This document shows, piece after piece, positions 16,409 through 55,304 of a stretch of 64,000 nucleotides of DNA; positions within the stretch are counted from its first letter, which is position 1; every line of letters starts with the position of its first letter. Position numbers and translations under genes: made by a program. This stretch comes from Brevibacillus sp. (GTDB lineage: Bacteria; Bacillota; Bacilli; Brevibacillales; Brevibacillaceae). Where the stretch lies: contig JACDOF010000001.1 in assembly GCA_017656235.1 (NCBI GenBank), positions 930,001 through 994,000 of the forward strand, in the 5' to 3' direction. Under the pieces are notes generated by a model. That model did no database searches, had not been told where the DNA came from, and worked only from the letters and a program-made list of their open reading frames with translations.

Positions 16409-16432
16409 ACAAAAAAAGCAGGCTATGCCTGC
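16409..16432 (-). terminator. terminator downstream of mtrB, at the edge of repeat A
   Basis: GCAGGC-ATA-GCCTGC followed by seven T on the minus strand. It is 457 bp beyond the mtrB stop. A partial second copy (TATGCCTGCT on the plus strand) lies at 16871-16880, only 8 bp after mtrB, with the repeat element between the two. Confidence 0.85.
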
Positions 16433-16515
16433 TCTCAGGGTATAGACAAACATATCCCGAAAGGACACACGTCCTGCTCGCGCCGCTGCCTGGCCAGTAT
16501 GCAGACAAAGGTGTC

Positions 16516-16861
16516 TGAATGGCAAAGTCGTTCGTGCGGAAAATGGCCGCTCTCCCGTCAGAACTCGCCGTCTTGGGACGAACAGGGCGCCATACGATGC
16601 TGGACGAATCTCAGAAATCTTGCTTGGGAACGAGTGTGGGCGTTTTTTCGCCAGCGAACGAACGGTTGGGCCAACCTGCCAGCGAAACGACGTATCCGCA
16701 GGGAATCGCAGCGGCAGCAGCATCACGTCGAAAGCGTGATGTCGTTTTGGCGCTGCCCCTATGGATCGTCGTGAAGTAATCCTGGACTGCTTCTTTGCTG
16801 GTTGGCCAGCGCGACTGAGGGCGAAAAACGCCCCACTCGTGTTTTCGACAGGTTGTCTGCA
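16516..16861. repeat. non-coding repeat copy A with a 209 bp imperfect hairpin
   Basis: This stretch is clearly similar to 54883-55262, with long matching runs and scattered changes. The core 16631-16839 is a long inverted repeat: the outer arms begin CGAGTGTGGGCGTTTTTTCG and end with CGAAAAACGCCCCACTCG. Further inner arms include GGCCAACC with GGTTGGCC and CATCACG with CGTGATG at the tip. Short open frames cross it on both strands, but frames do not stay aligned between the copies, so I treat it as non-coding. The bases 16434-16515 to its left are not shared with copy B. Confidence 0.85.
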
Positions 16862-16888
16862 AGCTGAGCTTATGCCTGCTTCCCGGTG

Positions 16889-17140
16889 CTACTCCTCCGA
16901 CGTGTCAAGCACGCCGTGGCGGGTCATGATGAGTGCCTTGCCCCGAACCTTGATCGCGGACGTATGCTCGGTAAACTGGGCCAGCATTACTTCTCCCTTG
17001 TCCAGTTTCTCGGTATGGTGAAAGCGTGTATCGGTGCCGCGCGTCAGGCCAATGACATGAACGCCGTTTTCCTTGGCCTTGATGACAAAGAAATCCTGAT
17101 GGATCGAAACGTTTGGCAACGAATCTTTTCGCTGTTCCAA
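16889..17140 (-). CDS. mtrB: trp RNA-binding attenuation protein (TRAP)
   Basis: TRAP forms an 11-subunit ring that, with bound tryptophan, wraps the GAG repeats of trp leader RNA and causes attenuation. The 83-residue protein has '[21 protein letters not shown]' features and '[10 protein letters not shown]' with the conserved Lys and Arg that contact RNA. The start is TTG with AGAGGGGG ahead. It has about eight more N-terminal residues than the B. subtilis protein. In B. subtilis it follows folE (mtrA); here about 2 kb with two genes and a tRNA lies between. Confidence 0.95.
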
Positions 17141-49889: not shown

Positions 49890-50175
49890 AAAACAGTGAA
49901 CAACGATGATGAAGAGAGGCTGTTCGCTTGGAAACCCCCAGAGAGCCGGTGGTCGCTGCAAACCGGTGGTTCCACGTAACAGATGAGCACTTCGGAGTTG
50001 TCAAACCGAACGGAAAGAAAGCGTCCCAGTAGGTTTGTCCGGTTGAACCGTTATCTCCAGGTCTTGTACCTGACAAGGTTTTCTCTTGCGAAAGGGAAAA
50101 CAAATGAGGGTGGCACCACGAAGCAAAAACCTCTCGTCCCTCACTACGGCAGTAGTGGGCGTACGAGAGGTTATT
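49890..50175 (+). promoter_or_regulatory. T-box riboswitch, serine-specific
   Basis: The T-box motif AGGGTGGCACCACG is at 50107-50120. Stem I carries the AGAGAG bulge (49940-49945) and a distal loop between CCGGT and ACCGG. A lower part pairs ACAAC with GTTGT, TGAAG with CTTCG and CTGTT with AACAG, leaving an internal loop with AGC at 49986-49988 followed by A: the serine codon in specifier position. The TGGC in the T-box matches GCCA, the end of tRNA-Ser with its G discriminator. GAGGG pairs with CCCTC as antiterminator. Uncharged tRNA-Ser would turn on the operon. Confidence 0.93.
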
Positions 50176-50210: not shown

Positions 50211-51365
50211 ATGTTTGCAGACAAACAGATTTTGCGAATTCCCGGTCCAACCCCCATCCCGCCCCGCATTCAGCAAGCGATGAACCGCCCGATGGTCGGT
50301 CATCGAAGCGGTCAGTTCTCCGCCTTGTTGGCCGATACGGCCAAGCGTCTCAAGCCGCTGTTCGGCACTGAACAAGACGTGTACATCCTGACCGGCAGCG
50401 GTACCAGCGCACTGGAGATGAGCGTGGTCAACACGGTACAACCCGGCGAGGAAGCAGCCGTGCTGGTCAGCGGCGCGTTTGGAGACCGCTTTGCCAAAAT
50501 CTGCGAACGTTACGGAATTGTTGTCCATCGACTGGAAGTAACCTGGGGTGATGCCATTACGCCGGAAGCGCTGGCTTCTTTTCTGGAACAGCATCCGCGA
50601 GTAAAAGCGGTTTTTGCCACCTACTGTGAAACCTCTACCGGCGTACTCAATCCGGTCCGCGAACTCGCCCAGGTGATTCGCGAAAAGACGGAAGCGCTGT
50701 TTATCGTTGATGCCGTCAGCTGCCTGGGAGCCGTGCCTTGCGAAATGGACGCATGGGGCATCGACATCCTCGTCACCGGGTCCCAAAAAGCGCTGATGCT
50801 TCCTACCGGTCTCGCCTTCCTGGCTGCCAGCGAACGCGCCTGGCGGGTGATTGACCAGATGAAACCATTGGCCTTTTATCTGGATCTCAAAGCGTACCGG
50901 AAAAGCTTGGCCGACAACACGACACCGTACACACCGGCTGTTTCGCTGGTCTTTGGACTGGCCGAAGCATGTGCGATGCTCGAAGAAGAAGGTTTGCCGG
51001 CCGTCATCAAACGGCATGAGTTGATGCGCGACATGACCCGTGCGGCTATGCGCGCCCTCGATTTGCCGCTGATGACCGAGGACGCGTATGCTTCCCCTAC
51101 CGTCACTTCCATTGATCCACAGGGCAAGTTTGACGCTGAAGAACTGCGCAAGGTGCTCCGAACCCGGCACAATCTGGTGGTTGCCGGAGGCCAGCAGCAC
51201 CTCAAGGGGAAAATCTTCCGCATCGGCCACATGGGGTACTGCGAGCCGCTTGATGTATTAACAACGGTCGCCGCAATCGAAATGGCCCTGCGCCAGATCG
51301 GCGTTGACGCACCGCTCGGCGCCGGTGTCAAAGCAGCTCAGGAGGTGTTGATCAACCATGTTTAA
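50211..51365 (+). CDS. class V aminotransferase of the serine operon
   Basis: A 384-residue PLP enzyme of the small-domain class V group (serine-glyoxylate/alanine-glyoxylate aminotransferase-like). 'LRIPGPTPIPPRIQQAM' opens it, 'LTGSGTSALEM' and 'VDAVSCLGAVPCEMDAWGIDILVTGSQKALMLPTG' hold the PLP Lys. Many such proteins are annotated PucG-like. Here a serine T-box and the adjoining serA suggest it serves as the phosphoserine or serine-forming aminotransferase, in place of classical SerC. Its stop overlaps the serA start by 8 bp. Confidence 0.9.
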   Translation: MFADKQILRIPGPTPIPPRIQQAMNRPMVGHRSGQFSALLADTAKRLKPLFGTEQDVYILTGSGTSALEMSVVNTVQPGEEAAVLVSGAFGDRFAKICERYGIVVHRLEVTWGDAITPEALASFLEQHPRVKAVFATYCETSTGVLNPVRELAQVIREKTEALFIVDAVSCLGAVPCEMDAWGIDILVTGSQKALMLPTGLAFLAASERAWRVIDQMKPLAFYLDLKAYRKSLADNTTPYTPAVSLVFGLAEACAMLEEEGLPAVIKRHELMRDMTRAAMRALDLPLMTEDAYASPTVTSIDPQGKFDAEELRKVLRTRHNLVVAGGQQHLKGKIFRIGHMGYCEPLDVLTTVAAIEMALRQIGVDAPLGAGVKAAQEVLINHV

Positions 51366-52941
51366 AGTACTGATTAGCGACCCGCTCAGCGAGCAGGGAA
51401 TTCAAAAATTGCTGGAAGCACCAGATGTGGAAGTGGTGCAAATGACCAACCTCTCCCCCAGCGATCTTCTGGCTGTGATTGGGGAATATGACGCACTGCT
51501 GGTGCGCAGTCAGACACAGGTGACCGCCGACGTCTTCGCTGCGGGCAAACGATTGAAAGTGGTGGGACGAGCCGGCGTAGGTGTCGACAACATCGATCTG
51601 ACTGCGGCCACCGAAGCGGGTGTGGTCGTGATTAATGCCCCGGACGGAAACACGATTTCCACGGCCGAACACTCCTTCGCGATGCTGATGGCCGTAGCGC
51701 GCAATATCCCGCAAGCGCACAAAAAGCTGGTGGACGGCACGTGGGACCGCAAAAGCTTTCAGGGGGTCGAGCTGAACAAAAAGACGCTCGGCGTGATTGG
51801 GATGGGGCGCATTGGGTCGGAAGTGGCCAAACGGGCAAAAGCATTTAACATGAAAGTAATCGGATACGATCCCTTCTTGACTGACGAACGCGCGCAGAAG
51901 CTTGGCGTTATCAACGGAACCGTGGACGATATTCTGCGCGAAGCCGATTTTATCACGGTGCACACCCCGCTCATCAAGGAGACTTATCACCTGATCAGCA
52001 CGGACGAGTTTGCCAAGATGAAGGACGGCGTACGAATCATCAACTGCGCACGCGGCGGAATCATTGACGAAAAGGCACTTTATGAAGCCATTTTGAGCGG
52101 TAAAGTGGCCGGTGCGGCCCTCGACGTTTACGAAGAAGAGCCGCCAAAGGACAATCCCTTGATCGGACTGCCGCAGGTCGTCACCACCCCGCACTTGGGC
52201 GCATCCACTGTCGAAGCACAAGAAAACGTGGCCATTGATGTATCCGAAGAGCTGCTCAAAGTGCTGCGTGGGGAACCCTTCAAAAACGCGGTCAATCTCC
52301 CGTCTATTCCCGGTCACGTCATGGAACGGGTGCAGCCGTACTTCGACCTCGGGGAGAAGCTGGGCCGCTTCCTGGCTCAGGTGACGGTCGGCGCCTTGCA
52401 GGAAATTACGGTTACCTACAGCGGTGAACTGGCCGACGTGGATACCTCGCCGCTCACCCGGACAATCCTGAAAGGAATTCTTTCGTATCGGTTGGGCAGC
52501 GAAGTGAACTTTGTGAATGCCCCCCATCTGGCCAAAGTGCGCGACATCAACGTGACCGAACAGAAATCGTCGCAGAGCCGCGGTTTTACCAACCTGATTA
52601 CCGTGGCCGTCAGCACCAACCTGGCGACTCGGATTGTGGCCGGAACCCGCCTGAATGGCTACGGCGCCCGCATCGTCAAGATCGACAATTATTCGATCGA
52701 CCTGGCCCCAGAGGGACAGCTTCTCTACATTCACCACAACGACCGACCAGGTGTAATCGGTCGTGTGGGGTCGATTCTTGGCTCCAACGACGTGAATATC
52801 GCCACCATGCAGGTGGGCCGTCGTGATGTGGGGGGAGACGCGATCATGGTACTGACCGTCGACAAGCCCCTGTCTCCCGAACTGCTGGATACGCTCGGTG
52901 AGTTGGGCGAAATTACCAGTGTCACCCAAATCGAACTGTGA
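51358..52941 (+). CDS. serA: D-3-phosphoglycerate dehydrogenase
   Basis: First step of serine synthesis from 3-phosphoglycerate. The 527-residue protein has the substrate domain, NAD motif 'GVIGMGRIGSEVAKRAKAF', catalytic 'NCARGGIIDEKAL' Arg and 'TTPHLGAST' His, an ASB domain and a C-terminal ACT domain ('LLYIHHNDRPGVIGRVGSIL', about residues 455-525) that probably gives serine feedback. It is translationally coupled to the aminotransferase gene and is under the T-box. Confidence 0.97.
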   Translation: MFKVLISDPLSEQGIQKLLEAPDVEVVQMTNLSPSDLLAVIGEYDALLVRSQTQVTADVFAAGKRLKVVGRAGVGVDNIDLTAATEAGVVVINAPDGNTISTAEHSFAMLMAVARNIPQAHKKLVDGTWDRKSFQGVELNKKTLGVIGMGRIGSEVAKRAKAFNMKVIGYDPFLTDERAQKLGVINGTVDDILREADFITVHTPLIKETYHLISTDEFAKMKDGVRIINCARGGIIDEKALYEAILSGKVAGAALDVYEEEPPKDNPLIGLPQVVTTPHLGASTVEAQENVAIDVSEELLKVLRGEPFKNAVNLPSIPGHVMERVQPYFDLGEKLGRFLAQVTVGALQEITVTYSGELADVDTSPLTRTILKGILSYRLGSEVNFVNAPHLAKVRDINVTEQKSSQSRGFTNLITVAVSTNLATRIVAGTRLNGYGARIVKIDNYSIDLAPEGQLLYIHHNDRPGVIGRVGSILGSNDVNIATMQVGRRDVGGDAIMVLTVDKPLSPELLDTLGELGEITSVTQIEL

Positions 52942-54665: not shown

Positions 54666-54702
54666 AAGGACCGTCAGGAATGGTATCCTGGCGGTCCTTG
54701 CA
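54666..54702 (+). terminator. terminator after the small gene, left boundary of repeat B
   Basis: GGACCGTCAGGA and TCCTGGCGGTCC pair around ATGGTA, then CTTGCATT. The U-run is degenerate. An almost identical hairpin lies exactly 600 bp further on. Confidence 0.75.
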
Positions 54703-54725
54703 TTAGACAACGGGTCTTGATAGAG

Positions 54726-55262
54726 GGAGGCGGCCATTTTCCTTCCTCACTCCGTGGCCAACCACCAATGATGCTGGGCTGTCCGCTTCGCCATCCCAGA
54801 GCGGGCGGGCTCAAAAGCAGTGCTGCTGCGCCGTTTGTCCAAGTTGCGCCCGTATGCCCCGCTTCGGGCTTGCTCCGCTTGGATGGTTGGCCAAGTCGTT
54901 CATTCGGAAAAATGGCCGCTCTCCTGTCAGAACTCGTCAGAACTCGCTTTGTATTGATTCTGAAGTATCTGTCGGCTCTTCGGGCAAACGAGAACCATAG
55001 GGTGCCGAGTGTGTTTCAAAGCTTTCGCATGGGACGAGTGCGGGCGATTTTTCGCCAGCGAACGGTTTGGCCAACCTGCCAGCAAAACGACGTATCCGCA
55101 GGGAAATCGCAGCGGCAACAGCATCACGTCGGCAGCGGGACATCGTTTTGACGCTGCCCCTGCGGATCGTCGTAAAGCGGTCCTGGACTGCTTCTTTGCT
55201 GGTTGGCCACCGGGAGTGAGCGAAAAAAACGCCCCACTCGTGTTTACGACACTTTTTCTGCA
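54726..55262. repeat. non-coding repeat copy B with two hairpins
   Basis: Similar to copy A (16516-16861) over 54883-55262. It has a right hairpin 55035-55240 with outer arms CGAGTGCGGGCGATTTTTCG and CGAAAAAAACGCCCCACTCG and inner arms ATCCGCAGGG and CCCCTGCGGAT. A left hairpin pairs 54726-54763 with 54885-54924 (the GCGGCCATTTT ... GGCCAACC block and its inverse); copy A keeps only one arm of this. Overlapping frames change reading phase relative to copy A, so no protein is proposed. Confidence 0.85.
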
Positions 55263-55265
55263 ATC

Positions 55266-55304
55266 TGGGACCGTCAGGAATGGTATCCTGACGGTCCTTT
55301 TTTG
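55266..55304. terminator. second terminator copy, right boundary of repeat B
   Basis: GGACCGTCAGGA and TCCTGACGGTCC pair perfectly around ATGGTA and are followed by CTTTTTTG on the plus strand. Differs from the left copy by one base in 32. It also lies 30 bp after the stop of the convergent HAD gene, where the stem could act with the run of A on the other side. Confidence 0.85.

Follow-up and report, generated by a model that had tools for sequence, protein, structure and literature searches.

What are the two related, hairpin-rich stretches at 16516-16861 and 54883-55262 of this Brevibacillus window (the whole 64,000-nucleotide stretch of DNA that was analysed, C1:930001-994000 of the host genome)? 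The first-pass annotation left the choice between a mobile, non-autonomous hairpin element, MITE- or REP-like, and a structured RNA. Our analysis favors the MITE. Both stretches most probably belong to a MITE family whose mobilising transposase is of the IS1182 type and takes stem-loops as its targets, a reading to which we assign a probability of about 0.93.

The two stretches are homologous, as proposed, with 86% identity over 246 bp (E 4e-79) and a second aligned block of 60 bp. The long imperfect hairpins described at 16631-16839 and 55035-55240 are also present, CGAGTG...CACTCG ends included. Folded as single strands, the stretches of 346 nt (A) and 380 nt (B) have minimum free energies of about -153 to -155 kcal/mol. 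The boundaries first drawn were too narrow, however, and a second, unrelated long hairpin in B had been overlooked. The larger elements, A and B, and their surroundings are as follows.

16417-16433: left target hairpin at A, AGCAGGCTATGCCTGCT, with an A-tract before it from 16411 (direct reading).
16436-16866, plus strand (L149 1442-1872): element A, 431 bp, mosaic, missing from both sister species when they are aligned here; terminal inverted repeats (TIRs) CAGGGTATAGACAAAC and CAGCTTGCAGACAACC, two mismatches each.
16631-16839, plus strand: M2 hairpin of A.
16867-16881: right target hairpin at A, a decayed copy, AGCTTATGCCTGCTT.
54668-54699: left target hairpin at B, GGACCGTCAGGAATGGTATCCTGGCGGTCCTT, sharing 96.9% identity with 55268-55299 over 32 bp.
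About 54697-55267, plus strand: element B, about 571 bp, a composite of M1, spacer and M2 with an approximate left end; TIRs CTTGCATTAGACAACG (left, degenerate) and CAGATTGCAGAAAAAG (right, minus strand).
54728-54922, plus strand: M1 hairpin of B, GAGGCGGCCATTTTCC...GGAAAAATGGCCGCTC, the one overlooked.
54946-54961, minus strand: internal TIR-like end of B, CTTTGTATTGATTCTG, with the family consensus CAGATTGAATACAAAG on the other strand (direct reading).
55035-55240, plus strand: M2 hairpin of B.
55268-55303, plus strand: right target hairpin at B, with the U-tract TTTTTT directly after it.

Both elements have a common TIR form, CAGNNTGNAGACAAAG at the left and its inverted form at the right. 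Aligning the copies revealed modules: M1, a hairpin of about 195 bp (GGCGGCCATTTTCC...GGAAAATGGCCGC); a variable spacer; M2, the hairpin of about 206 bp noted at the outset; and a third type of about 250 bp, T3 (L145, L150, L152, L159). M1, M2 and T3 are all bounded by these same outer ends. Family interiors are modular and mosaic, some copies are truncated, and elements range from about 150 to 610 bp. In element A itself, a left end of T3 type is followed by a remnant of M1 and an intact M2 hairpin. The M1 hairpin also occurs as stand-alone MITEs in two sister species, G001 and G002. The internal end at 54946-54961 of B may be the right end of an M1 unit, as if two MITEs had fused, and its consensus form is present among the genomic TIR matches. 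At several sites near-tandem M1-M2 units lie about 470-530 bp apart (L024/L027, L029, L030, L113), possibly amplified by recombination.

Only two copies had been described. The host genome, a 3.6 Mb draft assembly in 31 contigs, holds a high-copy family of many dozens. Searching it with the window stretches gave 53 matching pieces, the best 40 of 128 candidates being scored, and the upstream part of B searched alone gave at least 40 matches (the best 40 of 106 candidates). The TIR pattern has 102 genomic matches at up to one mismatch in the host, against 4 for a reversed-pattern control. The core motif of M2, the 3′ hairpin, has 46 host matches at up to one mismatch; in seven related genomes no match is as close. 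All three species analysed from the genus contain the M1 motif, which has no match in five other family members. As far as seen, these MITEs are confined to one genus. Relatives of a neighbouring transporter gene (the nearest in Brevibacillus, at about 81% protein identity) have no element in their loci, and searches of plasmid and phage collections gave no match to the elements.

Might the stretches be remnants of a conserved protein-coding gene? Several open reading frames of more than 100 aa do cross both copies, but no frame is open throughout (at most 20 of 27 copies for M1 and 21 of 31 for M2), frame lengths are variable whichever of the three phases is read, and searches of Pfam and PHROG give nothing below E 0.05. 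The coding reading was rejected as having next to no chance, and the stretches are non-coding, as first described.

The hairpin at 16417-16433 is the intrinsic terminator of a minus-strand mtrB-like gene, a small open reading frame at about 16888-17140 that we take, by eye, to be mtrB (TRAP, trp RNA-binding attenuation protein), and it is into this terminator that element A has inserted. At B, 31 of 32 bases agree between the flanks (54668-54699 and 55268-55299), and the U-tract is kept at the right copy. Flank reading at many loci finds an intrinsic-terminator hairpin on either side of the element. For quantitation, a curated set of 48 elements from three genomes was preferred to automatic TIR pairing, which gave many false pairs. 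A flanking direct repeat scoring at least 12 is present in 32 of the 48, against 0.13% of mispaired flanks, and a flanking hairpin of -8 kcal/mol or lower in 94%, against 23% of background windows. Identical insertion sequence (IS) copies were left out of this set by de-duplication and are included among 37 clear cases, in which the direct repeat is 15-31 bp long (median 23). In 34 of the 37 this repeat is the hairpin from one foot to the other, and in 33 it lies within 2 nt of both element ends; 8% of random 24-mer draws span a hairpin in the same way. Sixteen of the 48 have no clear direct repeat, which could reflect decay, recombination or false end pairing.

These duplications count against the "REP-like" label. 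Elements of the REP/BIME type, moved by a REP-associated tyrosine (HUH, IS200/IS605-like) transposase, would likewise be intergenic, palindromic, near gene 3′ ends and present in high copy number. Their units are far shorter, however, at 20-60 nt, and they have neither the TIRs of a DDE insertion sequence nor a target duplication; IS200/IS605-type transposition is not known to yield one. The size of the elements described here, TIRs equal to those of DDE insertion sequences and target duplications of 15-31 bp all contradict such an origin, and we see barely any likelihood in it.

The sister species show what the sites look like before insertion. At locus A, the element is absent from both G001 and G002; downstream of the mtrB-like gene each has a single unbroken terminator, AAAAAAAGCAGGCTATGCCTGCTT, which matches the left hairpin copy at A. 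At the right hairpin of A the alignment blocks overlap, by 10 bp for G001 and by 14 bp for G002, as a direct repeat would make them do. Locus B is also empty in G001, where it holds a single terminator, and is rearranged in G002. The same elements could in principle have been placed by recombination or template switching between terminators that were already duplicated, without target-duplicating transposition, and such a history would suit some loci with a mosaic structure or a decayed copy of the hairpin. We regard this as very improbable: orthologous sites hold single uninterrupted terminators, and in three species exact foot-to-foot duplications of unrelated terminators abut the element ends, also where the element is a full-length insertion sequence with a transposase gene.

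Those full-length elements provide a candidate autonomous partner for the MITE family. G001 carries IS1182-family transposons of 1530-1546 bp, about 1.54 kb, whose open frame encodes a DDE transposase (NF033551 up to 492 bits, cut-off 270; domains PF13751, PF05598 and PF01609). Their TIRs, CAGNNTGNNGACAAA, are common to the host elements. Exact or near-exact hairpin duplication is found at most G001 copies (L219, L220, L223, L224, L225, L226, L228, L229). At L218, L221, L222 and L227 the flanks do not match, a pattern that could result from recombination among copies; one copy of a shared hairpin, AAAGAACCGAGTTTTGTCGGTTCTTT, lies at L221 and another at L222, consistent with an exchange between this pair. 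The ends of eight IS1182s from other Bacilli (L191, L192, L194, L196, L197, L202, L216, L217) resemble CAG..TGNNGANAAA, and their direct repeats, 18-28 bp long, are hairpins. This suggests that an IS1182 subgroup may be marked by duplication of the whole hairpin. Direct repeats of IS1182 elements range from 0 to 60 bp in reference tables. The window elements resemble this subgroup in their ends, stem-loop target and hairpin-long direct repeats. They differ from it in being gene-less and only 431 and about 571 bp long, with unrelated interiors, whereas the subgroup copies are 1.53-1.58 kb and carry a transposase gene. The M1, M2 and T3 interiors are not derived from the IS body, and the match is limited to the ends.

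Conversely, the other two genomes appear to have been left with the non-autonomous copies. G002 has a single broken IS1182 copy (G002:C1:2631603-2632309; L316, L318-L320) with a stop and gaps, at 61-84% identity to the G001 transposase. The autonomous element thus seems to be decaying in G002 while the MITEs there are numerous. No transposase had been seen in the window, which holds, and none of the IS1182 type was found in the whole host assembly either, where the best match reaches 26.8 bits against the cut-off of 270, and 15.6 bits, at noise level, with the G001 transposase protein as query. An autonomous IS in the host itself was considered as the mobiliser, and none was found in its assembly. 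Collapsed IS copies could be missing from the 31-contig draft. Because no IS1182-type transposase was found in the host assembly, we infer mobilisation there from the sister species. The host transposase looks to be lost or unassembled, and the host copies look like orphaned, recombining remnants.

Elements A and B are therefore MITE-like in the sense first proposed: they are shorter than 1 kb, lack a transposase gene, share TIRs with a sister-species insertion sequence, are dispersed in many copies, and have empty sites and target duplications (the right copy at A being decayed). Their palindromic, stem-loop target is that of an IS1182-mobilised element. MITEs and insertion sequences have the same ends and the same target, the whole hairpin is duplicated, and the empty sites have a single terminator. 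From these sequence comparisons, a mechanism can be proposed in which the IS1182-type transposase would mobilise the MITEs in trans. It would recognise the folded stem-loop, probably extruded or single-stranded, and the element's 3′ ends would be joined at the 5′ foot on each strand. Repair would then duplicate the entire hairpin. After insertion, one hairpin would still have its U-tract. Termination would therefore be expected to persist, with the element joining the 3′ region of the neighbouring transcript.

A structured non-coding RNA, acting in cis or in trans, would also explain many dispersed copies, with the fold under selection and mobility incidental. One result favors this explanation. 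In the M1 fold across three species, 95.7% of cells are paired and 14 of 54 pairs have changes on both sides. Cells changed on both sides number 66, compared with 18.6 +/- 3.4 when shuffled, and the slid controls collapse. The M1 fold is thus kept by compensatory changes, but palindrome-templated repair between the arms could yield the same covariation without selection. M2 adds little: it is nearly invariant, is known from the host species only, and covaries at 3 pairs. Since every fold was optimised separately for its strand, counts of G-U versus A-C are uninformative on strand. Relative to the terminator U-tract, the elements are inserted evenly in the two orientations (12 versus 11; a further 7 are ambiguous on either side and 2 lack a run), which is a poor fit to a strand-specific RNA read with the upstream gene. 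Even orientation is compatible with a DNA-level role or with palindrome-templated repair, and leaves room for either. Mosaic and truncated copies also argue against an RNA, and an Rfam covariance-model search at the gathering score matched nothing at the repeats. Of the structured-RNA suggestion, then, the covariation of M1 stands, while strand bias and a known RNA family were not found, and the explanation as a whole strikes us as rather improbable. We are also doubtful, if somewhat less so, of a combined proposal: that the stem-loop itself is the target, with strand transfer at both feet and a duplication that preserves the terminator, and that the covarying palindromes, M1 especially, are selected as structured RNA or as cruciforms, in 3′ regions or in transposition.

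The same Rfam search matched only T-box and tRNA in the window. The T-box leader (49897-50144, plus strand, 106.5 bits) precedes two genes that resemble a serine-biosynthesis pair, one for a class-V aminotransferase (50211-51365) and the next for a phosphoglycerate dehydrogenase (51358-52941).

It is already known that elements of the IS1182 type can target hairpins. IS1272 and TnSha1, IS1182-family elements of staphylococci, resemble the MITE family in targeting hairpins without a sequence consensus, often transcription terminators (PMC4923244, PMC5678879). They delete or replace the hairpin (partial deletion in PMC4923244) without target duplication, whereas the window family duplicates it whole. 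Whole-hairpin duplication is drawn in PMC5678879 only as hypothetical pathway b of the IS1272 model; IS1272 itself replaces, and so destroys, its target. PMC4923244 cites Siguier et al. 2015 for palindrome-targeting IS1182 members. What is new here is the MITEs of a hairpin-duplicating IS1182 subgroup. Our literature search found no account of IS1182-type MITEs or of whole-hairpin duplication, which is weak evidence, as most subscription papers lay outside its scope. Like the window elements, MITEs in general and the pneumococcal repeats BOX and RUP (see also PMC3049150) are small, gene-less and present in many copies. Terminal inverted repeats are found in MITEs and in RUP, both of which probably rely on an IS transposase, and BOX is modular. 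The window family differs from all of these in its terminator stem-loop target, its whole-hairpin duplication and the presence of two long palindromes in one composite.

A MITE family together with its putative autonomous partner may be of use in annotating Brevibacillus-type genomes, and its many natural target pairs could help to show how a DDE transposase recognises the structure of DNA and not its sequence. For the bacterium, exact hairpin duplication means that an insertion can leave a working terminator. Such terminator-sparing insertion would be a low-harm route to many dozens of copies.
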